Part shown: one piece after another, positions 1 through 57,638 of the stretch
How the letters are laid out: each line of letters begins with the position of its first letter
Position numbering within the stretch: position 1 is the stretch's first letter
Source of the DNA: Dysidea avara
Lineage: Eukaryota; Porifera; Demospongiae; Dictyoceratida; Dysideidae
Length of the DNA: 64,000 nt
Reading direction: 5' to 3'
Assembly (NCBI RefSeq): GCF_963678975.1
Contig: NC_089275.1
Coordinates: forward strand, 11,439,682-11,503,681
Program-made: the position numbers and the translations under genes
The notes under the pieces: model-generated
What the model was told of the DNA's origin: nothing
What the model saw: the letters and a program-made list of their open reading frames with translations, nothing else
The model's database searches: none

Positions 1-316
1 ATGCAATATGTTATATAGTCCAGCCCCCTTGTACATACGTATTACGTACTCCCTCAATCACTTACATGGTATGTGATGATCTTATATATATACGTATATA
101 CAAGGGGGTTGGACTATATATAACATATTGCATTTGGATAATGTTATTTAGACTACAGCTAGATAAGGTGCTTGAATTTCATTGACTATACTTAGAGGTA
201 TCTAAATCCTGTAGATCTCATGTTTTCATCAATTATATCCCTGTTTCTGCGGCGACACAAAACACAGCACCTTTAACAATGGCAATACACGGGCCTTCAA
301 CTGGATGACAACTGTA

Positions 317-362
<46 letters not shown>

Positions 363-660
363 AGTATACACTAGCATACCTCATTGTAACCTTTAGTGCT
401 TGACTTTATGCTTTACGAGTCTTGAAATTGTGTGATCTTATTTTGAAGACGTGTTTTCAGGGTTATGTACACTCATTATGCATGTAACTGAAATCAGTCT
501 TTTCCTATACATCATTTGTTTGGTTGGTTTCATAATAACAATAGTTCATTCATATTGAATTAAGGCAATTTCTTATAGACAAGACTTATGTACAAGCACA
601 CAATATGTATGCTCAATTATGAGACATCTAAATGTCTGTATAATGACTTGCATACTGTTT
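1..660. repeat. Foldback repeat, right half, plus flanking segment (copy 1)
   Basis: Bases 1-40 reappear as reverse complement at 92-133 (ATGCAATATGTTATATAGTC and its complement), making a strong hairpin. Bases 134-305 are the reverse complement of 5631-5790, while 361-640 matches 5876-6120 in the same orientation. The simplest reading is an element with order B-A-A'-B' whose left B arm lies upstream of the window; the second copy retains only B-A. Both ends are therefore approximate. Confidence 0.7.
320..359. repeat. (TA)n microsatellite
   Basis: About 20 uninterrupted TA units lie between the foldback arm and the downstream unique part of the repeat. Copy 2 near 5870 lacks this tract, so it expanded or inserted after the copies separated. 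Confidence 0.95.
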
Positions 661-825
661 AATTAATAGTTGCTATATCCAAATGTGCAAATTTAAAAGA
701 AAATTACTGGTATTTTCAATTGAGTTTTTTTCCTATAAATCTTGCATGTGTGCATGGAAATTGATGATTTTTATGGTCACATAGTACGTACATGTAGCTA
801 ATATCAGTAGTGTATAATATTTATT

Positions 826-1000
826 TTTTTATTTATTAAGGCTTTACAGCACAAGTGTTGAAAGGTCTATAGGACACTTGGTCCTACAGCCTGTTTAATG
901 TTGTTACATAAAGTGTGTTTGTAAAGGTGGGGAAAGTAGAAAAAATCCATGACTGAACCTGGGCAGCCTCAAACCTGCAGCCATCCGATCAATGCTCAAA
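826..1000 (-). repeat. tRNA-derived SINE, family A (minus)
   Basis: Homologous to 17461-17689 and, inverted, to 8317-8543. The plus-strand start is the TTTATTAAGG tail followed by GCTTTACAGCACAAGTG and TTGGTCCTACAGCCTGTTTAA. The tRNA-like B-box lies near 975 on the minus strand (GCAGGTTTGAGGCTGCCC, one change from GGTTCGAGGC). The tRNA-related 5' end is cut short compared with the 17461 copy. Confidence 0.75.
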
Positions 1001-1189
1001 TATGTACACTATATATTGTTGTACTAAAAATAATTGATTGACTGTAAAGATTTGCTAAACTCCAGTTGCTACATCACCTGTTGTTGTAACCATAAATATA
1101 ATAGAATTACAAGTTTTAAATTGTTGATCCATTCATGTATGTGTATTTACCTAGTATTACTGTAATTAGCTTTTTTTCGTTGTAAAATA

Positions 1190-1355
1190 ATTTTCATATG
1201 CAAAATTTGTACAAAAATTTCTTGCACGAAAATTTTATACAAGATCGAACTACTCTAATAGAACAGTCATTTACGTAAATCATACGAAAATATTTTTACA
1301 CGAAAATTTTATCACAAAGTTTTTTGCACGAAAATAAAGCGAATTACGGTAATCA
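1190..1355. repeat. CGAAAATTTT-rich dispersed repeat with CTCTAATAGA module
   Basis: Contains repeated TTGCACGAAAATTTTA blocks, ends in AAAGCGAATTACGGTAATC, and carries AAGATCGAACTACTCTAATAGAACAGTCA at its centre (written here only as a description of 1241-1269). A diverged copy at 8545-8725 has the same order: CGAAAAT block, CTCTAATAG blocks, then AAAGCGAATTATGGTAATC. No terminal repeats or ORF are visible. Confidence 0.6.
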
Positions 1356-2827
1356 GTGTCTACTGCTCACCCCACACTTTACATCAGCAACATGACTATA
1401 GCAATTAATCAGCAAGACAGTACAATTGATCATTAACTGTGCACACCTATATATTAGACAACCTGCAGTATTTATGTATTTAGCTTAAGTGAATCTCAAA
1501 AGGCAGCTCCTTTACTGCAGAGTTTACAATTATTGTACAGTTTCAAGAAAAAGGTATCCAGAATGCAGTTTAGTATAAAAGGTTATATAATTTCGTTGCG
1601 ATAATATTGAGGTTTTCTTTGCACAAAATGGTTGAATGTACATCTGTGAAAAGCATGCACTTTACTGCATTGTCCTTGATATTCATTACCATCATGCTGA
1701 AACTAAACCATGCAATGTTTGGTATTTTTAATAATGTACATGATGTTGAAACATGACAGAAAACCTATAAACATACATGGAAGGATTTTTGGAAGGGCAC
1801 ACCTTCCAAAAAAATTCCTTTGAAACTTTGTGGAAAGGACAACAATTAATAAGAATTGACTAATATTGTACAAGACTGCTGAGAATTTTCAACAGCTTTA
1901 AAAGTGATTGAAGAGTGAATATTGTTGAAGATAGAAACACTGCACAATGCATATTAATTTGTAAACTGCATGGATACCACCGATAAAGTAACCACATACA
2001 TTCAGCACACTTCTGTAGAAACACTGCTACCCAAATAGTCTGTATACAAAAAGAAGGATCAAGAGTTATTCAATTTGGCATTAAGTACAAAAAGTACTGA
2101 CATGCACTATTAATTGCTCAAAAGTTATGCTTCAGTTTATGTTGTGCTGGTACAGTAACTTAGTATTTTCTGAATAATTTTCAGGTTTGTGAATAATAAT
2201 TTATTAAAGTGCTGATGTTTGTAGAAAACTTATGAATTAGGCAGCTGGTTTTATGAAGTATCTAAAACAATCATGTTAAAAGCAGATTGACTGCTCTATT
2301 AGAACTGCTGACCGCTCAGTAAGAATATGTTTTACTTTTCTGTGACATCCATTATCTCTACTATTATGTACTATTCTGTTTATTATGCTAGAACCGTGCT
2401 TAATGCTTCAGCCACCTATTGTGCCTAAAATATGCATATGTTGGCATAATCTGCTGCTGCAGCTGCTGCCTGTTTATCCACATTTCAGGACTGTAAACTT
2501 CTCTATTATAGTTTATACTAAATCTAATAATCATATACCATCACACTAGCTACTTTTAATGGTGAAAAACACAAATTCCTGTACAAAATTCATGCACAGC
2601 ATTCATCTGTGGATGCCTGCACAGCATTCACTTCTCTTACCCACCATAGAGCAAACAAAATAATATAACAGGAGATAGAATTGAGTTCATTTATGAGATT
2701 CATAATAAGTATATAGGTATGTAGCTAGTTTACCTCATGCATACATTTTGTATATAATAAGGTTCATTGCATTTTTAAAGCACCAAAACCCATTTCATAC
2801 TGCACATGTATTGAGTGTATATATGTA
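1356..2827. other. No gene recognised
   Basis: AT-rich sequence without a credible coding exon. It includes a reverse-orientation CTCTATTAGA module at 2284-2310 and a degenerate TTATGC-rich stretch near 2390-2450 related to the hAT MITE at 8898-9333. Nothing else is supported. Confidence 0.5.
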
Positions 2828-2952
2828 ATAGTTATACCACGGGCACGAGTGCTTTGCCTGATATATATATGCACTAGCACGAGGGCCGTAGGCCCGAATG
2901 CGAGTGTGTATATATAGGCAAAGCATGGGTGCCCATTGTATAACTAATATGT
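2828..2952. repeat. Foldback MITE (TAGTTATACCACGGG family)
   Basis: The left arm TAATAGTTATACCACGGGCA, followed by GCTTTGCCTGATATATATA, is answered by the complementary TATATAGGCAAAGCATGGGTG and TTGTATAACTAATA on the right. Relatives at 3421-3573, 34047-34160 and 36958-37240 share the GYTTTGCCTGATATGTAYGC core and TAGTTGTAACACGGG ends. Confidence 0.75.
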
Positions 2953-2997
2953 TCTACTTTAGCATGTAGACCCACCTAATTGGCAAAATATTTAGTT

Positions 2998-3302
2998 GTT
3001 ATACCCTTCTCTTATGTAGGGAACCAAGTAAGCTGTGATTGTGGGATTCAATTTTAATACACCAAACGGTAGTTTTATTTTATTTTTGCTATTATAGCAA
3101 TTTTAAGAAACTATAATAGCAATTTTAAGAGACTAGTGTTAATTATGTTATTTTAATTGCTACATTTACAAAAGTAAAAAACAAACTACTGTTGATGTAT
3201 TAAAAGTGAATCCCACAATCAGAGGTTGTTTGGAAAATTTAATCCAACAATCACAGATTTCTTGATTCCCTATATAAGAGAAGAGGATAACAGTATAACA
3301 TC
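2998..3302. repeat. MITE with about 130-bp terminal inverted repeats
   Basis: Left end GTTATACCCTTCTCTTATGTAGGGAA and right end TTCCCTATATAAGAGAAGAGGATAACAGTATAAC are complementary, and so are the inner GATTGTGGGATTCA / TGAATCCCACAATC blocks and the flanking TTTTAATACA / TGTATTAAAA. No ORF. Short GATTGTGGGTTC fragments recur at 38288, 42084 and 51420. Confidence 0.65.
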
Positions 3303-3360
3303 AAAAAAATCTGATGATTTCTGGATATAGTGTGCACTCCTATTAGGTGTGCAATGTCTC

Positions 3361-3410
3361 AAGTTAACGAGATATATGCACTGGTGGCAGTGCGTATATC
3401 TCGTTAAGGC
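3361..3410. repeat. Hairpin: AGATATATGCACTG stem
   Basis: ACGAGATATATGCACTG and CAGTGCGTATATCTCGT face each other across a 4-base loop. The same GAGATATACGCACTG / CAGTGCGTATA words recur, rearranged, at 4276-4328, so this is a dispersed fragment, not a unique structure. Confidence 0.65.
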
Positions 3411-3420
3411 AGTGTGTAAG

Positions 3421-3573
3421 TAATAGTTGTATCATGTACCCGAGTGATTTGCCTGATATGTACACCCACGCTCTCGGGCCGTTACACCCAAGCTCGAGGG
3501 CCGTTAGGCCCGAGAGCGTGGGTGTACATATCAGGCAAATCACGAGGGAACGTGATACAACTGATATGTACCA
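3421..3573. repeat. Foldback MITE, same family as 2828-2952
   Basis: GTAATAGTTGTATCATGTACCC ... GATTTGCCTGATATGTACACCCACGC is answered by GCGTGGGTGTACATATCAGGCAAATCAC ... GTGATACAACTGATATG. The central part (TCGGGCCGTTA) is itself palindromic. It is slightly longer than the 2828 copy because the arm has been extended by a GC-rich inner stem. Confidence 0.75.
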
Positions 3574-4114
3574 TGTAGGCTAATAGCCTACTGTGGTGGG
3601 CGACTAATCACCCAAGCCAATACGAGGCAACCCGCTGGATTTATTATATAGAGAGTCTTGTAAAATTCGATTATGGGTCAGCAGCAAGTAACGTTGCAGT
3701 TACGTTTGTTAACATAAACGGGAAAATCCTATGAATATCACGGAAACACTCAATTTTGCGATTTAACAAGTGTTTCAAAGTTGCTACATCGTTTAACCAC
3801 TGTTTACAATGTTTTCTAAACATCCAGAGGGGTAAGCTTCGCTGTAGAGTGGTTACCTCGTGATATACGAAAAGTGGGCGTGGTACGTAATCAAATTGGA
3901 CACGCGATTGTAAATTAACCATGACACCAGTTCTCACCTTAAACTTCCGTCTGTCAACTCATAGTGTGGTAAGGGTGTTGAATCGCCTTCGTATGAGTGC
4001 TGTAGAATGCAAAATCGGGTTCATGGTTTTCATCACGTGAGTAATAATAAACTCCCACAATCGAATACTGCCAGGATTCTTATAAAAACAAACAACGTTA
4101 CCTCATCAGATATA

Positions 4115-4222
4115 TCAAGGCCATGGTACATGTAAATGTATCATGGCCAGCCATGGTTTATTTTAAATGTACCATAGCCAGCCATGGTTTAACTTAAATG
4201 TACCATGGCCAGCCAGGGCTTA
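4115..4222. repeat. Short tandem repeat, about 36-bp unit x3
   Basis: Three imperfect units share AATGTACCATGGCCAGCCATGG and TTTAWTTTAAATGTA. The unit contains the palindrome CCATGG. No coding role is apparent. Confidence 0.7.
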
Positions 4223-4330
4223 TAAGATATGTACCCTGGAATTTGGCTTTGAAGTTAGGTGGTTTCATGGTACATTGAGATATACGCACTGCCTTAATGA
4301 GATATACGCACTGGTAGCAGTGCGTATAAT

Positions 4331-4742
4331 TATATTGTTAACATTTTGAATCGGTGCAATATGTGATATATATATGCACTGGCTTTCCCTTGATCTGAGG
4401 TGTGAAAGTGGTACATACGTATATTGTATTAGCAATCAGTCCAGTTGAATTGATGTGGGGTGGTGAATAGGTCGCAATTTGGCCAAATTCATTTTTACGC
4501 ATTTCTCTTTCCTACGAAACTGCCCTGTTGGGAGGCAGTACGTATCTTTTAATGCCTAATAACTCACCTACATACTTTATTCTATCACTGGCATCTATTT
4601 TACTTACGTATAAATTAAGTCTTGACATGAATTTAGTGAGGAATTCAACTTGCAACATCAAGCAGTCTGGTACAAAAACATGGCGATTTGGGTGTGGTCC
4701 ATTGCGTAATTTTTGGTTACCATGGTTTTGAAACTGCTCTAT
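4331..4742. other. No gene recognised
   Basis: One open stretch at 4528-4731 has no start context, splice signals or recognisable domain. I see no repeat structure here. Confidence 0.4.
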
Positions 4743-4930
4743 TGCGATAAGTGGGCGTGGCTCACGAAAGAGCTACGCGATAGCGTTTATAAGTTTCCAC
4801 GTCGTCAAACGACAATTTCGTTTCTCACGTGATCCAATCCGGGTCAGACCCGGATAAATTGTAAACCGGGTCAGACCTGGATGACCCGGAGAAAATGTGA
4901 CCCGGATGACCCGACCCGGTTTCAACGCTG
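4743..4930. mobile_element. Truncated copy of the CCGGGTC hAT-like element
   Basis: Matches the outer parts of 48911-51207. It begins inside that element (GATAAGTGGGCGTGGCTCACG), runs through TTTATAAGTTTCCACGTCGTC and GACCCGGATGACCCG repeats, and ends with the same right terminus (CCCGGTTTCAACGCTG). At 4787-4797 it preserves the uninterrupted sequence into which the LINE at 49264 inserted in the other copy. The left terminus is missing. Confidence 0.8.
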
Positions 4931-5630
4931 GTCACCATCTTTGTCAGTAGCTGTGTCACAGGGGTTAATATGCAACATTATTCTATCACAATAATTCATC
5001 ATGACACATAGAAATCTGTTGAGTCTTAAATTATTAAAATATTCATAATCTGTCAGCAACTGGGGGCACACCCCTGCATGCTGCTGGAAACTTAGTGTTG
5101 CCTTGGAAACCCCTCCTTGGCTTTTAATCCTAAATTCAGTAATGGCTATAGATTGAAGTTAAGTGATTAAATGTCTGGTAATATATCTGCAGGTATAGGT
5201 AACCTTCATTGTTTTACCACTGTTAACTATTACCTTGCTTCACTAATTGATCCCTAATCCATCTTAAAATTCCTAATTTTTACTTCTACTGTTACTTGTA
5301 AATGAACAACATTGCTAATAATTATAATAATAGCATTGATGCAGGTAGGAACGCTTTTAGGTAAACTATATAACGTAGATAGCTAGACTTCAAAAACACA
5401 GTGTTCTATGGAATTTAATAACCTGAAGGCCCTATGTTGTGGTGCCTGAGTGTGCTAGTACAGGACCTGAGGGTTTCTAAATTCTGTGGAACTCTTGCGT
5501 TTCAAAGTTTAACTTATTAGACTACAGCTCAAACCTTTACAGCTGCTTGTGACATGGCATTCAGTAGTAGAAGCAAGCCTAATTCATGTCACTCTAATTA
5601 GTACAGCATTTGTCATCCATTTAAAGGCCC

Positions 5631-6150
5631 ATGTATTGCCAATGTTAAAGGTGCTGTGTTTTGTATCGCCGCAGAGACAGGGATATATTATATAATTGAT
5701 GAAAACATGAGATCTACAGGATTTAGATACCTCTAAGTAGCCAATGAAATTTGAGCATCTCATCTTGCTGTGGTCTAAATAACATTATCTAAATGCAATA
5801 TGTTATAGTCCATCACCTTGTACATACATGCTCCCTCAATCACTTACATGGTATACGATGATCTTAATGTATATCACAGCATACAGTAGCATACCTCATT
5901 GTAACCTTTAGTACTTGAATTTTTATGCTGCATCTGTCTTGCAAATAATATTATTTGAAGATGTGCTTTCAAGGTTTATGTACACCCATTATGTATGTAA
6001 CTGAAATCCTATACATTATTTGGTTGGTTGGTTTCATAATACCAATACATCATTCATATTTGAATTAAGGCAATTTCTTATAGACAAGACTTACAATGTG
6101 TATGCTCAATTATAAGATATCACAAATGTCTGTATGATAATTTGCACAAA
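5631..6150. repeat. Foldback repeat copy 2 (one arm plus flank)
   Basis: 5631-5792 is the reverse complement of 134-305, 5793-5875 is direct to 1-90, and 5876-6120 is direct to 361-640. This copy lacks both the second hairpin arm and the TA microsatellite of copy 1. Divergence is spread over the whole length, so the duplication is not recent. Confidence 0.75.
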
Positions 6151-7594
6151 ATAAAAGGTAGCTACATACTTCAATAAGCTTTTGTCATCGGTATTAACTT
6201 AAAGTGTTCAATCTGTTCATAAAGTATTGCTATAACTTTGCTCATGTTCACTGACAAAAAATACAGTGCAGTTAGGTGATACATATGATCACACCCAATA
6301 TTTTTTTTCTTAGACTAGAACATGCATGTTGTAAACGTGTTTGCATGCCTGAATTGTCCATACTTAATGTTGGAATATTTAAAACCTCATAGCTTACTTG
6401 TTAAATATGTACATATTTATTTATATTATTACTGGGCAGGTGGTTCAGCTGATATTCCCAGGAAAAAAATTTACAGATATTGCAGATATTAGATACAGCT
6501 ACTACTAGTATAGTAATGCTTTTTTGTAATTCTGGAATTTACAGGGTTTCACAGTGCTACTAAATATTTGGGCAGCTGGTAAATCATGTAACAAGAGTTA
6601 TTAAGGAAGAACAAGGAGCCAGGTGAATGCGAACTACTGTGTTTCCAGATCATTAAAACCATCGTGATAAAACACAGCCAATTCTTATGCTCTTGATGCA
6701 CTGCTGAGTCATTGGGATGCTGCAAAATTCCTCCTAATTAGTGTAATTTAAATTTCTACTTTGACCAGTTTATAGTGTTTAATAAACTATTCATATAGCG
6801 TATCTCATCACCACCAATTATTGACTAGAAGTATCCAAACAATCATGTGAGCTTGTTTAATCTTGTAATGGTAATGCTTCAACATTAAGGAATCCACTCA
6901 GTAAAACACTGATTTTCAGCATAGCCCTGCATACAAGCAACAAACACACATACGTACATACTCTCTTTTCAGATTATTCAGTGTTCTTACAATATTACAT
7001 GTATGTAGACAACAAATCAACTGTCAAAAGGGTATAACGTGTAGTAGAGTTGAACTGGCATAACAAGATAATGAAGCCTGAAAGGTGACAACCTTCATGA
7101 GATCAGGCATTGAGTGAGATGCAGTAAATGAAGCAGAAGGATTACATGGCCTTTCATCTACACTACAGTCCTAAATACAGAATTTCTCAATGGCCGAAAG
7201 ACCTCATTAGAAATTATAATTAGCTACCTGATGCTTGAGGAAGATGAAATCTCAATAAAAGAGTAGTCCAAAGCTCGCAACATTACCCCATGATGGCCCA
7301 TGTTGATGTTCACAAGGAATATGTACATTGTACGCAGCATGTGCAGTAACTCGAGCAATGGCTAAGTCTCTGCTAAGCCAACAAAACCCACGAATGTTGG
7401 AACAGACTACTGATGTAGACAGAGATGGTAGAAACAGTACTGCACTAATTTTGCAGATGACTTTAGTTTAGGTAAAACTTTTATTTTTCATAAACAGGAA
7501 ATACCTAACCAGTCAAAATCCATGGGAATTTTCCTTTTAGAACTCCTTTTATAGGTCAACAGATGGACACTGAACTGCTGCAGTAAGTTATGAA
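6151..7594. other. No gene recognised
   Basis: AT-rich sequence. Because 7595-7921 encodes integrase remains, the preceding kilobase might hold a decayed pol gene, but I could not align any RT or RNase H motif in any frame. Confidence 0.4.
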
Positions 7595-7921
7595 GTTGTT
7601 ACACCAGGCTGCTATCAACGTAACATCTTACATCTGTCCTATGACACACCCTCGCTGGAAACCTTGACATTAAGAAAACTTATAAGAAAGTGCTAATTAA
7701 AGCCATTCTATTTTTAATGAATGGAAATCTACGAAGACATGGCCAAATTCTGTAAATCTTACTATGTTTGCCAGATGATAGGTAAACCAAACCAGAAATT
7801 TCCAATAGCACCCCTTAAGCCCATTCCAGCATTTGATGAGCCTTTCAGTCATGTCATTGTAGATTGTGTTAAACCGTTGCCTGAGTCCCCCCAAAAAAAA
7901 AACAGTGTGAAAAAGTTGTGA
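7595..7921 (+). pseudogene. Ty3/Gypsy-type integrase remnant (zinc-binding domain and start of core)
   Basis: In one frame, with three stops between 7694 and 7720, the translation shows the pattern of a Ty3/Gypsy integrase N-terminus. VVTPGCYQRNILHLSYDTPS matches the usual region before the HHCC finger. From 7721, FCKSYYVCQMIGKPNQ retains the two-cysteine half of the finger with one Cys replaced, followed by PIAPLKPIPAFDEPFSHVIV and D-C-V-K-P-L-P, the place of the first catalytic Asp. It ends abruptly at 7921 in a different repeat. It is far from LTRs and is not part of the element at 9419-12193. Confidence 0.75.
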
Positions 7922-7924
7922 AAT

Positions 7925-8110
7925 TAAAAGTGGCAGCCAAAAATGGTTGCACTGATGTCAATTTGAATAGTAACATGACGATGCTGTCATTATTAACATT
8001 GACATTATTGCAGCCATTTCTTGACTGTCACCTTTTATTTCATGCCTTTGGATGGCTTCTTTTTCAATTGTAAGCCTAAAGTTAACCTATAGCTGGCTTT
8101 ACTTGTATTT
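7925..8110. repeat. Degenerate copy of the 21257-21579 foldback element
   Basis: GTGGCAGCCAAAAATGGTTGC and TTGCAGCCATTTCTTGACTGTCACC mirror the GTGGCGGCCAAGAAATGGCTG / CAGCCATTTCTTGGCCGCCACC arms at 21340 and 21478. The tail (AACCTATAGCTGGCTTTACTTG, TTCTTTGCTACA) also resembles 21600-21667. Confidence 0.6.
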
Positions 8111-8209
8111 TCTTTGCTACAAGACTATACAAAATGGATAGCTGTGTATTTGTATGTGACTATAATTACGTAGCTGAATGTTTTGCAGAGTGACATATGT
8201 AACTTCTTT

Positions 8210-8272
8210 GACCGGGCAGGTGTCCTACAGACCTTCAGTACTTGTGCTGTAAAGCCTTAATAAATAAAACGA
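8210..8272 (+). repeat. SINE family A, 3' tail only
   Basis: GTCCTACAGACCTTCAGTAC, TTGTGCTGTAAAGCCTTAATAAATAAAA equals the 3' end of the SINE at 8317-8543. It is immediately followed by a fuller copy in the same orientation. Confidence 0.7.
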
Positions 8273-8316
8273 TATCCATTTGGAGTATACTTTGAGATAA
8301 TAAGTCACTCTCTCTG

Positions 8317-8543
8317 ACGTTCCTGTAAATACAAATACACAAATCAACATGGAGAAAATATCCTGACTGCCTGACAGACTCCTGTAAGTGTTTAAGCAAA
8401 AATCAGGTGGCTGCAGGATATCAAGTCCAGTCAAGGATATTTGCAACTTTTCAATCATACCTAATATAACAGGTTGTGGGACCACGTGTCCTACAGATCT
8501 TCAGCACTTGTGCTGTAAAGCCTTAATAAATAAATAAATATTA
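8317..8543 (+). repeat. tRNA-derived SINE, family A (plus)
   Basis: Complement of 17461-17689. It opens with AAATACACAAATCAACATGG, carries CCTGACTGCCTGACAGACTC CTGTAAG and a decayed B-box region near 8404-8425 (GGCTGCAGGATATCAAGTCC against GGCTGCAGGTTCGAGGCTGC elsewhere), and ends GTGCTGTAAAGCCTTAATAAATAAATAAAT. The A-rich TAAA tail marks the 3' end. Confidence 0.8.
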
Positions 8544-8544
8544 T

Positions 8545-8725
8545 ATATATGCATATGCAAAAATTATAATTTCTTACACGAAAATAGATTCAGATACTCT
8601 AAAATAGAGCAGTGATTTGCTCTAATAGGGTAGTCATTCATGTTAATCAGATTAAATAATTATATGAAATTTTTAATCATAAAATTGTTTGCACAAAATT
8701 AAAGCGAATTATGGTAATCGTAGCA
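8545..8725. repeat. CGAAAAT dispersed repeat, second copy
   Basis: Same order of blocks as 1190-1355: TTCTTACACGAAAATAG, two CTCTAATAG-type modules (8599-8636), ATTGTTTGCACAAAATTAAAG and GCGAATTATGGTAATCG. Divergence is high. Confidence 0.6.
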
Positions 8726-8897
8726 TACAGTAGCTGAACTCTACAGAATGAGATGAAGCATGTTATACATGCATGATACTTCATGTATAGAAAATATATA
8801 TTAATGGCCTATTCATGCCTTTGTATGCATGAAACATATACCAAACAATAGATAAATCCCATTTGATTTAATCGTTTCATTGATGAATAGTTGAGGC

Positions 8898-9333
8898 TAG
8901 GGACCCGCCGATTATGCTCATAATTTTACCTAGTATGCTATGCTGCACTGCTCAAAAATTTACCTATTATGCTTAAATATATGTTCAATACTTACCCATT
9001 ATGCTCAAATTATGCCCAATTATTTATGCTTCAGTTCCCATGCTCTAGTAATAATTTCCAATTTAATAAGTGGCTGAAGCACAAACCGACTTGTAAAAAT
9101 GTATATCACAGAAAAGATCGATATACTCTAATAGAACAGTCAGTTATATGATTGTTCTATTAGAGTTACTGACTGTTCTATTAGAGTATATCGATTTTTT
9201 TGTGATAGCTATTTTGATAAGCAAGAATTCATACCATTACACAAATATTCTACTTATTATGCTAGCATTATGCTCAATGCTTTCAGACACCTATTATGCT
9301 CATAATTATGCCAGCATAATCGGCGGGTCCCTA
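8898..9333. mobile_element. Non-autonomous hAT transposon (8-bp TSD)
   Basis: Inverted termini TAGGGACCCGCCGATTATGC are perfect over 20 bp. Exact 8-bp target duplications GTTGAGGC lie at 8890-8897 and 9334-9341, as expected for hAT transposases. The interior is rich in TTATGCTCA words. It also holds a 26-bp-arm hairpin (9118-9144 with 9171-9197) made from the CTCTAATAGAACAGTCA module. There is no transposase ORF. Confidence 0.9.
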
Positions 9334-9418
9334 GTTGAGGCATCACAAAAGAATTATGTGTTTCCTCTATAGTGCTCTTGCAAAATAAGATTCAGATAGT
9401 TTTCCTTGTTTCACTATG

Positions 9419-9535
9419 TGTTATGGTATGGTGCGCATGCGTAGAGGGGGCTGTAATAAGAGTAAACCGCTGAGTATGTCTACTGTGGATGTTAGTGTGT
9501 ATCCTTCGTGCCAAGCCGAATCCTCTCACGTAACA
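9419..9535 (+). repeat. 5' LTR
   Basis: Begins TGTTATGGTATGGTGCGCAT and ends CACGTAACA. It is about 95% identical to 12077-12193 (six differences). At 117 bp it is short for a Ty3/Gypsy LTR. No clear TATA box is visible; any promoter may be initiator-type. Confidence 0.93.
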
Positions 9536-9537
9536 AA

Positions 9538-9556
9538 TTGGGGGCTTGTCCTGGAG
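9538..9556 (+). promoter_or_regulatory. Primer-binding site, tRNA-Pro-like
   Basis: Two or three bases after the LTR lies TTGGGGGCTTGTCCTGGAG. It resembles the proline-tRNA primer site used by many retroviruses, TGGGGGCTCGTCCGGGAT, at about 15 of 18 positions (comparison from general knowledge). Its position fixes the element's orientation as plus. Confidence 0.7.
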
Positions 9557-9869
9557 CACCAGAAGACAAATTGTTTGAAGATTTTGGTCGCGGAGACATT
9601 TGTTTTCTACTTTCACTGCTCAGTCCCTCGTGTTCACCCTGTCCGATTCTAACCACTAGTTTTTAATCCTTAGTACCGGGCGAGTGGTACCTCAACAGGT
9701 GTGAATAGTTGTACAGTTGGTGTTGTTGTTCGTGTGTCTCGACTAGGTAGGATTTGTTGTTATCGGCGCCAGTGTGCATTATTTTGAATTACAAATTTGT
9801 AGTCAGGCAAATCATTCTCATCGTCGTTACTCTCATCGTTCCTATTACGTTGTTGTGGAGTGGATAATT

Positions 9870-11010
9870 ATGTCGTTCTCAGTAGACTCTTTTATACAAT
9901 CGCCCAGTCTATTGCCCTTAAATCCTTTAAAGAGGTGGAGCTGCTCTCCCTTGCTCAACACTACAAGTTGGAAGCCACTCAAGCTATGAAAAAGGGTGAA
10001 ATTCGAACATTGATCATAGAGTATTTAGTTGAGGTAGAGATCGTGTCTGAAGATGAAATACCATCAACCACTGATACTATCGAACTGAAGAGGCTAGAAC
10101 TGCAAGACAAGGAGATGGAGCGTGAAGCCCAGTTGAAGATGAAAGAGATGGAATTATGAGAGCAGGAGCTTGCTCTGCAGTTGGAACTTAAGGAACTCAA
10201 AATTGCAGCAGCTTCTACAGCTTCACCTGTACCTCGTACCAATCGACAGGCTGAATTTGATGTGACTAAGCAAGTACGGTTTGTTCCACCCTTCCAGGAG
10301 ACAGAGGTGGATAAGTATTTCTTGCATTTTGAGAAAGTTGCGTCAAGTCTGTCATGGCCTAAACAAGTTTGGACATTACTCCTTCAGAGCTCTCTGTTAG
10401 GTAAAGCCCGTGAAGCCTATTCAGCCCTATCGATAGAACAGAGTTCTGACTATGACACAGTGAAACGCTGTATTCTCAAGGCCTATGAGCTTGTTCCTGA
10501 AGCCTACCGACAGAGGTTCCGAGCCACCCAGAAGACAGATACTCAGACTTTTGTGGAGTTTGCACGGGCAAAGGAAACTTTGTTTGACTGCTGGTGTACC
10601 TCTAAAGGAGTTGATGGAGACTTTAACCGGCTCAGACAACTGTTGATGATGGAGGAGTTCAAAAACTGCCTTCCTAGTGATATTCGGACCTATCTGGATG
10701 AACAGAAAGTAGACAATTTACATGAAGTAGCAGTTTATGCTGAGGACTACTCCTTGACACATACCACTTCCTTTGGAAAGCCCCATCCCTGTGATGGTAA
10801 CTCAGCAGATATAACACTTGAATTAGCTAAAGATGGTCAGCCAGGTGCTCTTATCACCAGTAGCTTTACGGGTGGAGGCCCATCAGGGAACTACAGTAGC
10901 AACCACCTACCTGCTGGACCAACATGCTTTTCTTGCAGGAAGAAGGGTCACATAATGTCAGAGTGTCAAGCCTTACCAAGAAAGAACGAGAGGTCTGAAA
11001 AGCCTGATCT
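9870..11010 (+). pseudogene. Retrotransposon gag (capsid plus CCHC zinc knuckle), broken
   Basis: The likely start is the ATG at 9870. After about a dozen codons the reading frame shifts near 9905-9915 and continues in frame with 10181. A TGA at 10157-10159 lies within a Glu/Lys/Leu-rich coiled coil (KRLELQDKEMEREAQLKMKE on one side, EQELALQLELKELK on the other). Then comes a capsid-like helical domain: FDVTKQVRFVPPF, VDKYFLHFEKVASSLSWP, LLQSSLLGKAREAYSAL, AYRQRFRATQKTDTQTFVEF. The knuckle CFSCRKKGHIMSEC lies at 10927-10968. Gag binds and packages the element RNA. The domain order is that of Ty3/Gypsy-type gag. Confidence 0.88.
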
Positions 11011-11089
11011 CATTGTTTCCCCAAGTTTTCAGACAGACCATAAGAAGACAAGTAAGTTGCCAGATGAATACACTCCATTTATTTCATGT

Positions 11090-11410
11090 GGTAGTGTCTC
11101 CCTTGTTGGCTCACAAGTGGAATCTCCGATCACCATTCTCAGAGATACTGGTGCGACGTAGTCTCTGATATTGTAGGGTGCCCTTCCCTTCAGTTCCCAT
11201 TCGGACACGAGAATGACTGTGTTACTACAAGGAGCAGAGTTAGGAACTTTTCGTGTACCACTTCATAAGGTTCACTTGAAGTGTGGTCTAGTGACTGGAG
11301 CTGTAGTTGTCGGAGTGAGACCTTCCTTACCAGTCCAGGGTGTGAGTCTCATACTTGGTAATGACTTAGCTGGAGGACAAGTGGCCAATGTGCCACAAAA
11401 CTCAGTGTCG
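11090..11410 (+). pseudogene. Retropepsin-like aspartic protease, broken
   Basis: The frame continues from gag without a shift. SPITILRDTGAT carries the catalytic D-T-G-A signature near 11144-11155. It is followed by stops at 11159 and 11174 where the family has a short SLI-type strand. Downstream VSLILGNDLAGG (11342-11377) is the flap-distal ILG-N-D motif of Ty3/Gypsy proteases. The spacing is normal for a monomeric retropepsin domain of about 90 residues. The two stops abolish it in this copy. Confidence 0.85.
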
Positions 11411-11527
11411 CCAACTGTTGCAGCAGAGCAAGTCCCAACGAAGGTGTATAGGGTCAGTAACAGTAATTCACAACAGGATGTCAGTAGAGAGCAGATCGGG
11501 CGCGTTAGATGTTTGCCAGGAAAGAAA

Positions 11528-11893
11528 ATGGTAGACAACCAAATTTTCGTAGGGCGGTTACCCAAACACATTTGCAATAGGGACTTGGAAGACATTTTCT
11601 TTCCCTATGGAAAACTGACACGTTGTGAAGTGAAACAAGGAATACGACTAGCTTATGGTTTTGTTGAGTTTGAAAACAGAAGAGATGCTGAGGATGCAAT
11701 ACGTCTGGAGAATGGCAGAGAGATCATGGGTACTATGATAGTTGTGGAATGGTCTAGAGGACACGAGGACAAGAATAGCATACGTGATTATGATCGATAT
11801 GACTGCCGTATTCATGATCGGAATTGTTATGACAGAGGAGGACGAGATCACAGATACTCTCGAAGGAGGTCTTATTCATGGTCACCACCCTGA
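11528..11893 (+). CDS. RRM plus short RS tail: captured SR-splicing-factor-like gene in an LTR element
   Basis: In the same frame as the protease but with its own ATG (MVDNQIFVGRLP). A full RNA-recognition motif follows: RNP2 IFVGRL near residues 5-10, RNP1 LAYGFVEF near 42-49, then NRRDAEDAIRLENGREIMG and IVVEWSRG. The layout matches the first RRM of SRSF4/5/6-type SR proteins. The tail is Arg/Asp/Tyr-rich (RDYDRYD, DRGGRDHRYSRRRSYS) and stops after SWSPP. The next in-frame codons continue HKHHKYR before a second stop, so the tail may once have been longer. No introns are present. The coding frame is uninterrupted from 11213 while upstream gag-pro is broken. It occupies the position of pol. 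An element-encoded RRM of other origin is possible, but the RS tail favours capture of a host mRNA. Confidence 0.8.
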   Translation: MVDNQIFVGRLPKHICNRDLEDIFFPYGKLTRCEVKQGIRLAYGFVEFENRRDAEDAIRLENGREIMGTMIVVEWSRGHEDKNSIRDYDRYDCRIHDRNCYDRGGRDHRYSRRRSYSWSPP

Positions 11894-12057
11894 CATAAGC
11901 ATCACAAATACCGGTGACTGATTGACTTGTGCATTTCACTTAGTTATTAACCTTTTCCATACCTTGCTGGTGTATTTAGGTCTTTTATCATGTAATTTTT
12001 AGACAACTTTAATTTTTATACCCACGTGTGTGTGTATACCTTTGTTGTGTGTAGGGG

Positions 12058-12076
12058 TAGTTTTGTAGGGGGGGAG
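12058..12076 (+). promoter_or_regulatory. Polypurine tract
   Basis: GTAGGGGGGGGAG ends immediately before the 3' LTR (TGTTATGG). This is the expected plus-strand priming site, and it has survived. Confidence 0.75.
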
Positions 12077-12193
12077 TGTTATGGTATGGTGCGCATGCGT
12101 AGAGGGGGCTGAAATAAGAGTAAACCGCTGAGTTTGTCTACTGTGGGTGTTAGTGTGTATCCTTCGTGCCACGCCGAATCCTGTCGCGTAACA
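12077..12193 (+). repeat. 3' LTR
   Basis: Same length and ends as 9419-9535; six substitutions (for example GCTGAAAT for GCTGTAAT, CACGCCG for CAAGCCG). Followed by the CTATG target duplication. Confidence 0.93.
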
Positions 12194-12198
12194 CTATG

Positions 12199-14387: not shown

Positions 14388-16259
14388 CTGTAATAGGCAC
14401 TTATTAATTTATACATAATACTGTAGAGCTACATATGCATGTGGTGTACTGTATACAATGCATGGTCTTGCAGGAATAAATGCTTGAAATAATTGTGTAT
14501 ACAAGTATGTATTGTTACAGTATTATATGTATGTGTACATTATCCCACAGGTACTTACCATTCCATGAATAGTTATAGAGCCACTAGTACTTGTAGTTGT
14601 ATGGGCATACATGTAACCCAATGAGGTTGCCCGTTGGTTCATATCTCTGTTTGTAATAGCAGGGAAGAATGGTACCAGGTGTTCATCAATGTTATGGCCA
14701 GGATTCACAACATAGGTAAATGTATTAGGCTCATAGCTAGGGAAGTTATCGTCAGAGTATGTATCAAGCCATTCTTCATAGAGACGATCAACATTGCAGT
14801 GGTGCAAATAAAATATAGGATCATTGCTGGATATTGGGACTCCAAGCATTGTGCCTCCTACATAGATGTGCACCCTGTTGTGGAGTTCAGTAATTCTAAA
14901 GCCGCCAGAAAAGTCTGGACACACATTTGGATCTCGTGGAACTAAATACTCAAAGCCCTCCAGAGAATTTCTAAATCCCATGTTGGTGTCATTAATGCTG
15001 AATGGGTGATTGTCATAAGATCGCTGTCTCAGTGCTATTGTGAAGTCTTGCCTGCTTGGCAGCATCTTTTGAACACGACACTGCACACCAGTAGTCCCAC
15101 CAATACATCTTTCAATTGGACCAGTGGGTATGCTTGGATTACACACCTGGTTTTGTGCATTGCATACAATTTCTTGACTGTTCGTACATATGGTAGTCCA
15201 GTTAGAAAAGGGGCCATTGACTGGAGCTTCAACAGTGTTGTTATCTGCTGGTGGTTCAGCAAAAATGCCACAATTACTGGTACCCATTAAGTCCCATATA
15301 TCATCTCTTGTTTCCTTATCAGTCCAATCCCAGTAAGGCAAGCCAAATGTAGGATCATTCAAAACTCGTTGCATTTCCGTCTCTACAAACAGGATGTATC
15401 CTCTATGCCAGGTTGGAAAAGCTGGACCTTCATGAGCAAAATTAGGAACAGGACATGGATTCTTTTCATTACAAAACTGTGATATGATTGAAGTGTTATC
15501 ACAGCAGTTAATTTCTTCATCTCTGATGGCGTTGAAATGAAAAGACACAAATATGTCAAAGAGAGAAATTTCAGCAAATGATTCACTAGGAACAGTGGTG
15601 ACTGGTTGTATAATTGGCACCGTATACCCAGAGGCAGTGTTTCTTTTGATTGCTTGCAGTACTCGTACAACTTTGTCTAGTTCAGTGTCATTAAGGGTTA
15701 ATACATTTCTTCTAACCACTAGTAATGGTTGAGAACAGTTTTCACCAGTGTAACCACGTTTACAATCCATACAGTTGTATCCAGCATAGTTCCCATAGCA
15801 TGTGCATGCTCGCTGAAATATTTGGTTTGGCCATTTATACCTAAAATCGGTGTTGTTGGTGCCAGGCCTACTCTTCAGGAATTGTTGTGCCATACAATAT
15901 TTGCTACCAGCATTGCCCCCATTTTCACAAGGGTCTACAGCTTCAGTTGTAATGTTAATACATATTCCCCTTGTAGTCCCTCCACAGACTCCAAGTGCAG
16001 TTTCTGGACAACATTCAAAATCAAAGACTGCTTTGTCTAGAGTGCATTCCTTTGGCAGTGGCTGTCCAAAGCTTCAAAGTAAAAATAGTTGAAAAGTTAA
16101 CATTGTCATTGATATGTGCATTCAATGCAACAAAAGTACGCAATGCCTAAATTTACAAGTGTACACATGTGTATAATGGTAAACTGTAAAAACATAAGGA
16201 TTAATTATATAGATGTACCTTAATGAGAAAGTAGCAGTCACAAAAACTAGCCAGAGCAT
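14247..16259 (-). CDS. Membrane-type tyrosinase (type-3 copper oxidase)
   Basis: Exon 1 (16259-16219) encodes a signal-peptide start, MLWLVFVTATFSL, and ends at AAG|GTACAT. Exon 2 (16071-14559) is entered after TTTGAAG and ends at ATG|GTAAGTAC; together they give 518 residues. Next come a Cys-rich region (ECTLDKAVFDFECCPETALG) and an EGF-like stretch (ACTCYGNYAGYNCMDCKRGY). The catalytic domain has copper A His192, His227 and His236 (FAHEGPAFPTWHRGY) and copper B His411, His415 and His437 or 438 (LHNRVH, DPIFYLHHCNVDR). All six ligands are present. The layout follows vertebrate tyrosinase, which oxidises monophenols and o-diphenols toward melanin in a membrane compartment. Whether the product here is melanin, cross-linked protein or defence quinones is unknown. 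Confidence 0.9.
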
Positions 16260-49263: not shown

Positions 49264-51053
49264 TCGTTGAGGTCCTCTGCCCTTCTCTTGCTCCCATTTT
49301 AATTAACACTTATCGTACTGATGCTTTTTTGTTTACTGGAGGTCGTACCATCTTTTCTAGTGAAGGGACTACCCAGGGTGATCCTCTTGCTATGGCTATG
49401 TACACTATCGGTACTTTGCCCTTAATTTCTCGTCTTACTGGTCTAGTAAAGCAGTGCTGGTATGCTAATGACTCTGCTGCTGGTGGCAAGCTTTCCAAGC
49501 TTAAGCAGTGGTGGGACTTGTTATCTTCCATAGGGCCCAGTTATGGCTATTTTCCAAATGCTACTAAAACTATCTTGATAGTCAAGGAAACTGTTTTAAC
49601 TGATGCTAGAACAATTTTTGGAGACTGTGACATTCAGGTTACTGCTGAAGGACACCGTTATCTGGGAGGTGTAATTGGCACTCCTGCCTTTGAACAGCTA
49701 TTTTTGAGACGTAAAGTGGATGGCTGGATTGATGATCTTAAGACCTTGAGCCTCTTTGCCGAAACACAACCTCATGCTTCCTATGCTGCTTTTTGTCATG
49801 GTCTTTCTTTCCGATGGAACTATTTTTTTCGTGTTTCTTCTTGTTCTACAGACCTTTTCCTTCCTCTTGAACATTTTGTTAAATCTATTTTCCTTCCTAG
49901 TCTATTGGGTTGAACTGTCCCTGGTGATGTTGAGAGAAAGCTGTTTGCCTTGCCTGTGCCGCTAGGAGGCCTTGGTGTGTTTGATCCTTCGATTGTTGTG
50001 TCACAGCAGCGTTCCTGCTCTGTAGAAGTAAATGCTGGTCTCGTTGGCTTGATTATCTCTCAGGTACATCAACTAGGTGACTGTCTTGATGCACAGGTTC
50101 AGTTGCGATCCAAGTTTCACTCTAGGAGCCATCAAGAGCAACTTCAATCTGCCAATCATTTGTTCGATGAACTTCCTCCTAGCATGCGTTCCTCAGTCAT
50201 GTTGGCTCAGGAGAAGGGTGCATCGAATTGGCTCTCTTGTCTTCCATTGAAGTCGCATAATTTTGTGCTTCATAAAACTGCTTTTCGTGATGCAATTGCG
50301 CTTCGCTATCATTGGCTACCATCTGCCTGCCCTACTTCCTGTGCCTGTGGTCACTCTTTTACTATAGAACATGCTCTGTCTTGCCCAAAGGGTGGGTTTC
50401 CTTCTCTGAGACATAATGAAGTGCGTGATGTAACTGCCAATTTACTTTCCGAGGTCTGTAACAATGTTGTCACTGAACCCCACCTTCAGCCTCTTTCTGG
50501 TGAGACCCTTCAATACAAAACAGCTAATCGTGATGATAGCGCAAGGCTTGACATTGCAGCTAATGGTTTTTGGGGACTGGGACGATTTGAGAGGTCATAC
50601 TTTGATGTCAGAATTTTTAACCCTACTCAAATCAACCCCTACACTCTGCATACCGACGTCATGACAAGGAAAAGAGACGTGAATACCAACAACGGGTTCA
50701 TGAAGTAGAGAATACCTCATTTACTCCCTTAATTTTTACTACTACTGGTGGAATGGGTGATGCTGCTACTCAGTTTTATAAGAGATTGGCCAACCTTTTG
50801 AGTGCAAAGCACAGTCTTTCCTATGGAATAGTGATGGGATGGCTGAGGTGTAAATTGAGCTTCTCTTTGTTGAGGTCTGCAATTATGTGCATTCGCGGTG
50901 CCAGGTCCAGTTTGCCCTGTCCCATTGCTGAGGCACCGATTGCTGTGCAGGTCGCTGAGGCCCATATGTAAGATAATTTTTTTATATTTATTATGTACTG
51001 TTTTATCTTATTGTAACAATTGTTGCTGATACCAATAAAAAATTTTTAAAAAG
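49264..51053 (+). mobile_element. 5'-truncated LINE with unusual RT and C-terminal nuclease-like domain
   Basis: TTTATAAGTT is duplicated at 49254-49263 and 51054-51063. The 3' end is AATAAAAAATTTTTAAAAAG. The coding part starts in the middle of the reverse transcriptase. The undisturbed target is preserved at 4787-4797. Insertion therefore happened after the host DNA element was in place. Confidence 0.88.
49266..50971 (+). pseudogene. LINE polyprotein: RT palm to RHNE / RxDI nuclease-like C-terminus
   Basis: The frame opens at the truncation point: LCPSLAPILINTYRTDAFLF, then SSEGTTQGDPLAMAMYTIG (RT motif B-like), then CWYANDSAAGGKLSKLKQWW (motif C, YADD changed to YAND), HRYLGGVIG. A TGA lies at 49911-49913. 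After it come a Cys-His cluster CACGHSFTIEHALSC, GGFPSLRHNEVRD, EPHLQPLSGE and ARLDIAANGFW then YFDVRIFNP. A frameshift near 50645 leads to the last part, SFTPLIFTTTGGMGDAATQF and LLRSAIMCIRGARSS, to TAA at 50969. The Cys-His cluster followed by RHNE, EP, R-x-DI and FDV recalls the restriction-like endonuclease of R2-type LINEs. That analogy is my inference. Confidence 0.8.
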
Positions 51054-55542: not shown

Positions 55543-57638
55543 ATGATTATGATTAAAGTACCGGTAAAGGCACAGCCTGTATACCAGATCTGCACACAAT
55601 AGTACAATTAACCATTATACAAAAGTAAATCTCGAATCAAATAAGTAATTATCTAATAAGGATTTAAAATTATTTACAGAATTTTATAATACGTTGACTA
55701 CAACTACAGACAAAGCGTTCCAATCATTAATTAACCTATTAAAAAATAATTTGATAGACAGTTTAATCTTGAGTGACATTTGAAAAGCTTAAACTGATGT
55801 CCCCTTGTAATGGTGGTATCGGAGTAGGTATATAGAGTGGAAAAATCTGAATTAACTTAAGAAATAGTTATTGATAATCTTGTAAAGTAGTATCATATCA
55901 CCTCTATGATGCCTGTGAGCCAAGGATGGTAGCTGCAGCGCTGCTAGTCTCTCTTCATACGGTTTATCCCTTAATGATGGCAATAAACGTGTAGCCCTAC
56001 GTTGGACTTTCTCCACTTTCCTTTGATCAAGAACAAAGGAAGGCCCCCATACTGCATTACTATATTCAAGTGTTGGACGCAAAAAAGCTGTAAATAATTT
56101 AGTCAACATATCAGAATCTAAATAATCAAAAAAATTCTTAATTAATCCTAGTAATCGATTAGTTTTTGCAGCAACCTCTGTGGTATGCAGGTGGAACTTA
56201 AGTTGGTGGTCCAAAATAATGCCCAAGTCAGTGTCTTTGTAAGAATCAATATTGTCAATAACTGTTCCATCCAAATAATATGGCCCATAGTGATGCATCG
56301 GTCCAAGGTGCATATGCTTGCACTTCAAGATATTGAACTTAAGTTGCCAACGAATTGACCATTCATAAAGTAAGTCCAAATCATGTTGTAGTACTGAATA
56401 ATCCTCACTAGTTCGTACAACACGGAAAATCTTAGTGTCGTCAGCAAACATATACACGGGACTTGATACAACCGAAGATAAGTCATTGACAAACACCGTG
56501 AATATGATGGGACCAACACTGAACCCTGTGGGACTCCACTTGTAACAGGAATGGGATTAGATTTCTTTCCATTAAACACTACTTCTTGTGTTCTGTCCTT
56601 AAGAAAATCTTTTATCCACTGTAGCATCTTACCATGTATCCCAAAAGAAGGCAATTTTTGAATCAAGCATTGGTGGGGAACTGTGTCAAAGGCTTTTTGA
56701 AAATCTAGATATATCACATCAACAGAATAACCTTCGTCTAAGTATTTAGTGAAATAATCAAGTACATGAAGTAATTGAGTAGTACACGATCTGCCAGGTA
56801 CAAATCCAAATTGGTAAGCTGAGTGCAAATTGTTCAATATTAAATGACTTATTAGATGATCTTTAACTATAGACTCCATTAACCTACCAAAAATGGACGT
56901 AAGACTGACTGGACGGTAGTTACTAACATTGTTTCTAGCACCTTTCTTGTGAATGGGTGTCACTTGGGAATTTTTCCAGTCATGCAGTAAGGTTCCACTA
57001 TGAAATGATTTGCTGAAGATAATGGACAATGGGATAGCAATAAATTCACCCACAGATTTTATTATAGAAATTGGCCAGCCATCTGGTCCTGGAGACTTAT
57101 TGTTATGCATGTTCATAATTTTATCTAAAACAATATCCGGGGTGAAATCTATCGACTCAGATATGGGAGGGGAACCATTAGGGTCTATTGCAGGGGTAGA
57201 AGTGATATCTTCATTAGTAAAAACAGTGGGAAAATAATTATTAAACAAGGTAACTATTTCAAAATCAGAGCATGTCACAGTGTCATCAGAACGGATCAAT
57301 TCAGTAATGCTGGGGCGTGTCTTAACTTTGGAGTTTACATACTGCCAAAAAGCTTTAGGCTTGGATTTAACATTCTGAACTAATTGCTTTTTGTAGTCTT
57401 TTTTAAGGTTGCAAGTTAGGCTTCTAAGTTGATTATTTACAGTTTTGAAGTTTAATAGATCAGTTGGAGAACGAGTTGAACGATACCTTTTCCACAATTT
57501 GTTTTTCTGTTTCTTTGAAGAGAATACTTCAAAATTGGAATACAAACTTTTCCTTTCTCTTTGTTTATAAGTAGGAACATACTTATCAATAATATCTTGA
57601 AAGATGGACTTAAACAATAACCAAGACTCATTAGCGTT
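55543..57638 (-). mobile_element. CR1/L2-like LINE, 5'-truncated
   Basis: Inserted into the left arm of the foldback element between ACTACACAATC and GTTACATAGCTACAAGCC. The opposite arm shows the joined sequence (CACAATCGCTACATAGC). No target duplication is obvious. The apurinic endonuclease domain is missing. It ends in the same ATTATGATTATGA tail as the neighbouring copy. Confidence 0.88.
55690..57638 (-). pseudogene. LINE reverse transcriptase (CR1/L2/Jockey-like), frameshifted
   Basis: The frame 57617-56325 begins upstream of the RT (FKSIFQDIIDKYVPTYKQRE), then NNKSPGPDGWPISIIKS, SNYRPVSLTSIFGRLME, YLDFQKAFDTVPHQCLI (motif A, catalytic Asp), and SGVPQGSVL (motif B). A one-base change near 56505-56530 moves the frame. 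The second frame, to 55852, has MFADDTKIFRVV (motif C, both catalytic Asp), KCKHMHLGP, LGIILDHQLKFH, the thumb and RRATRLLPSLRDKPYEERL. A stop at 55852-55854 precedes the conserved TRGHQFKLFKCHSRLN and NYFLNR..INDWNAL C-terminus, reached by further frameshifts. This is standard APE-type LINE machinery; this copy is inactive. Confidence 0.88.

Follow-up and report, generated by a model that had tools for sequence, protein, structure and literature searches.

How does part of a splicing-factor gene come to lie between the LTRs of a sponge retrotransposon, where the polymerase genes (pol) would be expected? The window, a stretch of 64,000 nucleotides within the 550.8-Mb assembly of the demosponge Dysidea avara, contains such an element at positions 9419–12193; coordinates here are positions within that window. 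The explanation that we favor, with a probability of about 0.9 for the whole, is that a Gmr1-type Ty3/Gypsy element acquired a segment of spliced mRNA from a host SR splicing-factor gene, most likely when reverse transcriptase (RT) changed templates, from the element RNA to a host mRNA packaged with it, and back again. The product would have lost IN-RT-RH (IN, integrase) and retained the LTRs, primer site, gag, protease and polypurine tract, with an RRM fused in-frame 3′ of the protease. It would then have spread non-autonomously, in trans, presumably with enzymes supplied by autonomous Gmr1-type relatives, with the captured part mainly a passenger in D. avara.

The element is an LTR retrotransposon of 2775 bp (Table 1). 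An earlier note on this DNA had listed LTRs, a target-site duplication (TSD), a primer site and a polypurine tract, and all are present. The LTRs have TG..CA ends (TGTTA..TAACA) and are identical at 111 of 117 positions, and the polypurine tract reads GTAGGGGGGGAG. The first 23 LTR bases, with up to three mismatches allowed, occur at only two sites within the window, one in each LTR (0/100 shuffles). When 13 copies were compared with tRNA-Pro(TGG), the primer site agreed at 18/18 positions in eight and at 16–17/18 in five, the window copy being one of the latter. No tRNA genes were found within the window; ARAGORN called a tRNA-Pro at one of the three genomic loci tried, yet nine matching 3′ ends are present.

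Table 1. Features of the element and its flanks (positions within the 64,000-nucleotide window)
Feature	Position	Strand	Basis or remark
Target-site duplication CTATG, left copy	9414–9418	.	Flank reading
5′ LTR, 117 bp	9419–9535	+	LTR pair
Primer binding site	9539–9556	+	17/18 complementary to 3′ end of D. avara tRNA-Pro(TGG)
gag N-terminal open frame	9860–10159	+	Closes at TGA 10157–10159
gag	10181–11161	+	SCAN-type capsid domain ~10496–10765, CCHC knuckle ~10922–10969; closes at TAG in protease motif
Retroviral-type protease	11141–11377	+	DTGAT motif to LILGNDLAGG; homology to relatives; TAG at 11159 and 11174 in window copy
Element-derived linker, 5′ of capture junction	11378–11492	+	
Host 5′UTR-derived stretch, in-frame	11493–11527	+	Host −36 to ATG; clear in 4/8 copies tested, weaker in window copy
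Captured SR-protein cDNA	11528–11893	+	TGA 11891–11893; RRM domain ~11543–11737
cDNA exon blocks	Exon 1 to 11639, microexon 11640–11651, exon 3 to 11692, exon 4 to 11788, exon 5 to 11865, then part of exon 6	+	
Leftover host exon 6 homology past stop	11894–11909	+	Cargo end placed within 11900–11909
Polypurine tract	12065–12076	+	
3′ LTR, 117 bp	12077–12193	+	LTR pair
Target-site duplication CTATG, right copy	12194–12198	.	Flank reading

Several other features share the window. A MITE-like unit (8897–9334) adjoins the element upstream; it ends in perfect 22-bp inverted repeats and contains a hairpin (9112–9200) with 33-nt arms. On the minus strand, a single 456-aa open frame at 14523–15893 has a tyrosinase domain (E 9e-41), and a 371-aa frame at 62857–63972 looks by eye like a membrane protein and gave no Pfam match. 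Two open frames on the plus strand (49329–50708) appear by eye to hold parts of a reverse transcriptase, also with no Pfam match.

The coding part of the window copy matches the SCAN (E 5e-14) and RRM_1 (E 7e-14) profiles, and the protease of a relative, P0067, matches RVP just below the cut-off. As had been proposed, gag, protease and RRM share a frame, but in the window copy this frame is broken: stops interrupt it at 10157, 11159 and 11174, and the frame changes after 9870, near the start of gag as judged against the start of P0189, a D. avara protein. The TAG in the protease motif is found in two of the 14 copies with that motif (L009 and the window copy). Three of 19 loci (L013, L014 and L016) have an open frame of 493–680 aa that takes in most of gag and some or all of the RRM; for L016, 56 of 80 tested RRM residues fall within it. 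In L025 and L026, the RRM shares its frame with the end of gag only.

Neither RT, RH nor IN was matched between the LTRs of the window copy or of the 12 other two-LTR copies, with the integrase probe applied to four of these 13, and the element is non-autonomous. The cargo had been described as standing in place of RT-RH-IN; the order of pol in the clade is IN-RT-RH. An integrase upstream of the reverse transcriptase is described as the mark of the Gmr1 clade (PMC8220671, PMC2774666), and a survey of frogs reports SCAN in Gmr elements only (PMC4131045). The window element is like this clade in its SCAN-type gag, protease and CCHC zinc knuckle, the last slightly below the Pfam cut-off (E 0.0015, 19.0 bits against 20.8), and its relatives in the same genome have IN before RT; it is unlike the clade in having a host RRM and no pol. 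By structure, it is therefore classed as a non-autonomous Gmr1-type Ty3/Gypsy element, with the IN-before-RT order being that of the relatives L042, L045 and L049 and the element itself having no pol.

Where did the RRM come from? The cargo DNA matches 25 genomic stretches, of which 21 belong to 19 element loci on 12 contigs and the remaining four to one SR gene on C12. Within the captured part, this gene has introns of 64, 56, 1263, 4629 and 2454 nt, all GT to AG. The cargo corresponds to spliced host exons 1–6: all five introns are gone precisely at the splice sites, as expected from the intron-free cargo that had been reported, and a 12-nt microexon is retained. The joined exons encode residues 1–148 of P0005, a protein named splicing factor of Dysidea avara, and another exon encodes its last 16. 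Identity to the host gene is 83.4–86.9% over 363 nt in an alignment of 16 copies, with L019, L025 and L026, whose segments are in pieces, left out. The C12 gene is the nearest gene to the cargo among the matches listed, and in a protein tree it forms one group with all element RRMs (100/100) against ten other SR-type proteins; forks within that group are weak and the one separating the host has support of 84/45. Spliced host sequence therefore lies between LTRs in a genome that also has the donor-type gene. The earlier note had looked to just such an intron-containing gene as the check on a capture, and had named the lack of any closer host gene as the case against it.

An assembly artefact or chance join is a negligible explanation, for which no evidence was found; the cargo is at 19 loci on 12 contigs and the same junction occurs in proteins from other assemblies.

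The edges of the cargo define how much of the mRNA was taken. Host homology begins about 36 nt 5′ of the host ATG and runs into exon 6, where it is lost about 16 nt beyond a new stop codon. Most of the RS domain therefore lies outside the captured part. The tail, which had been read as RS-type, is instead the region preceding the RS domain, and the product retains the RRM of an SR protein without most of the RS domain. These edges also bear on a second route, in which the cDNA entered the LTR element as a LINE-made processed pseudogene and then spread with the element. Intron loss alone is compatible with any reverse-transcribed mRNA, and machinery of this kind may exist, as the window has a reverse transcriptase frame on the minus strand (56325–57617, RVT_1 E 9e-24, LINE-like by eye), overlapped by a second frame at 55852–56496. 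We consider this route very unlikely, as the cargo ends within an exon and its alignment to the host contains no mRNA 3′ end and no poly(A) or A-tract.

At the other edge, the host 5′UTR could be followed into the linker. Against 300 shuffles, the 5′UTR match was equalled by none in L018, L020, L021 and L024, and was weaker in L022 (2), the window copy (3), L009 (24) and L023 (61). When the 16 nt beside the ATG were removed and 500 shuffles were used, only L024 (1) and L020 (7) stood out, with 52, 72, 75 and 162 of 500 for L018, L009, L022 and L021, respectively. A host 5′UTR within the linker argues against the RRM being an old gene of the element family and not a host capture, as does the exon-precise match to one intron-bearing host gene. 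In addition, the three autonomous relatives that were read (L042, L045 and L049) gave no RRM match; relatives with both RRM and pol, which the earlier note had held would speak for an old element gene, were not seen among them. The association is not brand new, as related RRMs occur in P0006 and P0216 (69% and 72% identical to that of the host, respectively), and an old element gene is nonetheless highly improbable.

Capture from a spliced host mRNA, the reading that we prefer, raises the question of how often it took place. The same codon is missing at the exon 4–5 joint in all 16 aligned copies, which also share T15I and R16C. R119W is present in 15 of the 16, L024 being gapped at that site, and the new TGA is likewise present in 15, with L013 having CGA as in the host. 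As the missing codon is common to 16/16 copies and the new stop to 15/16, one spliced mRNA was captured once and is the source of all copies; the absence of the shared stop from L013 counts against our explanation.

The further insertions that the earlier note had said to look for exist, and their flanks record movement. Nine of the 13 two-LTR copies have a perfect TSD, of 5 bp in five and of 4 bp in four, the 4-bp ones being identified by visual inspection of the flanking DNA; a near match of 4 bp flanks L016, and no duplication is seen at L017, L018 and L022. Identity between the LTRs of a copy is 0.89–0.99 in these 13, including the truncated LTRs of L017 and L022, and the pairs of L010 and L011 differ at only 1/117 bases. 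Because the cargo is found at 19 loci, with TSDs and with derived changes in common, transposition took place after capture, as had been proposed. The genome contains 38 LTR matches, some with little or no internal sequence (L031, L032, L033 and L036).

The six loci outside the 13 two-LTR copies were seen in parts only, and some copies are rearranged. At L013 (688–3744), a copy of the RRM family has an inverted 5′ half, LTR included, perhaps via self-integration. The copy at L021 hosts an insertion (L037 2895–7542) with opposite-strand matches to RT and integrase at ~30%, RT before integrase, and at L024 the matched part is adjoined, on the opposite strand, by an RT match of 28%. The first half of P0004 resembles an antisense frame of the gag that precedes the RRM, as in a rearranged copy.

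A non-autonomous element requires enzymes from elsewhere, and autonomous Gmr1-type elements are present in D. avara. Those that were read (L042, L045 and L049) have the order gag, protease, integrase, reverse transcriptase, and their gag DNA is identical to that of the RRM family at 70%, 67.5% and, in two short pieces of L049, 66–78%. L045 (1–6601) was recently active, as its 82-bp LTRs are 100% identical, and it has the same primer site (18/18). It could supply enzymes to the RRM family, and we infer that it or its like does so. The pol family of L045 has at least 10 loci at 88–100% to the L034 stretch, with that stretch counted in; here, 40/66 gag candidates and 40/126 pol candidates were scored and the counts are lower bounds.

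A pol-bearing element with the same gag as the RRM family was not found among the 41 gag matches listed (40/66 candidates scored), and this also counts against our explanation. L034, with a gag at 96% and an adjoining IN-RT-RH, had been considered as an autonomous sister and was rejected: set beside L045, it fits the insertion of an L045-type element into an RRM-family copy and a later inversion. At L035, L038, L039 and L040, gag is fragmentary and no pol match accompanies it, and a gag tree of 19 rows gave no resolution. Scans of viral contigs, prokaryote genomes and phages found no relatives, as expected for a sponge.

The fate of the cargo can be followed in the differences among copies. 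Fixed differences between the host and all 16 copies amount to 2 changing and 16 silent over 78 codons of the RRM. During spread, the changing:silent counts in the RRM are 18:6 for shared variants and 43:16 for those in a single copy, with a neutral expectation of 2.6–3.7. In the tail, fixed differences are 7:1, shared variants 21:1 and therefore mostly changing, and single-copy variants 23:13 (shared versus single, p 0.01). For RRM and tail together, the counts are 40:8 versus 65:31 (p 0.05), and gag and protease gave no contrast between shared and single variants. These ratios show no sign of constraint on the cargo as it spread through the D. avara genome.

The early 2:16 differences could date from the host lineage, from the early history of the element or from both, and two observations point in contrary directions. 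At codon 46, a silent site, a host-like gene with a different intron (P0068) reads like the element, as determined by hand from its shifted frame, and the change at this codon is therefore on the host side. On the other hand, 12 of the 16 silent sites have G/C in the host and A/T in the element, with two the opposite way (counted by eye), which points to an origin in the element. If it arose on the element side, the excess of silent differences would be surprising in a pure passenger, and to that extent it counts against our explanation.

It also favors the alternative that the cargo was retained by selection, with the RRM helping the element, for example by adding a further RNA-binding part to Gag-Pro or by altering the splicing of element RNA. 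The shift to A/T is what would be expected of changes that arose in the element, and the same cargo is kept in P0006 and P0216, apparently on two backbones. The near-neutral RRM ratios during spread argue against selection, as do the excess of changing sites among shared tail variants, the same tendency in RRM and tail combined and the host-side change at codon 46. We regard selective retention as unlikely and prefer a cargo that is mainly a passenger.

The two metagenomic relatives, P0006 from a 4.3-kb JGI metagenome contig and P0216 from a 1.1-kb ENA contig, have a related linker as well as a related RRM. When their linkers were compared with those of P0001 and P0002, 0/1000 shuffles were as good for each pair; with P0003, the resemblance was weaker (32/1000 for P0006 and 4/1000 for P0216). 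P0216 is probably from another species, because its best D. avara matches are only 58–59% over residues 6–120 (at most 67% over shorter pieces). The protease of P0006, by comparison, clusters with that of autonomous L049 (99/96) rather than with the RRM family (AU p 0.005), in a tree of 78 columns and for a group named after the tree was seen. Its linker does not resemble that of L049 (576/1000 shuffles as good). The simplest reading is that the cargo may have moved onto a second protease backbone by recombination; P0006 is one contig and may alternatively be chimeric. Taken further, linker and RRM would form a portable cassette which, after one capture, recombined onto at least two Gmr1-type backbones, and its persistence in several sponge lineages would reflect a benefit that the element draws from an SR-protein RRM fused to Gag-Pro, for example through RNA binding in packaging or interference with splicing. 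We hold this to be quite unlikely.

Host-gene capture is well known in transforming retroviruses and has been described for some plant LTR elements. In the titles and abstract beginnings of the open-access literature, we found no earlier report of an LTR retrotransposon from an animal for which a donor-type SR gene had been identified. The main text of the 2026 D. avara genome paper does not contain the words "transposable", "repetitive" or "retrotransposon" (PMC12909245). Among animal LTR elements with added genes are those of bdelloid rotifers with extra ORFs, for which the authors favor exchange of DEDDy-type ORFs between elements over a host origin (PMC5408684); for the sponge element, in contrast, the host gene is identified. 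Bs1 of maize is reported to be a gene-transducing LTR element with parts of three plant genes (PMC13317346, PMC7264820). Both it and the sponge element are LTR elements with captured host gene segments; the sponge element differs in being animal-hosted and of Ty3/Gypsy Gmr1 type, and in its cargo, which comes from one gene only, as one spliced piece fused in-frame after the protease.

Acute transforming retroviruses depend on a helper. They carry parts of host mRNA, believed to come from recombination between co-packaged RNAs (PMC4997597). The sponge element likewise has part of a host mRNA inside it, but it is a retrotransposon with no envelope gene seen and with a splicing factor as cargo. 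As both cargo edges can be seen, together with intron removal, amplification and a likely second backbone, capture, helper use and the fate of the cargo can be studied in one genome, in an element whose mode of working would, by analogy, be like that of maize Bs1 and the transforming retroviruses.
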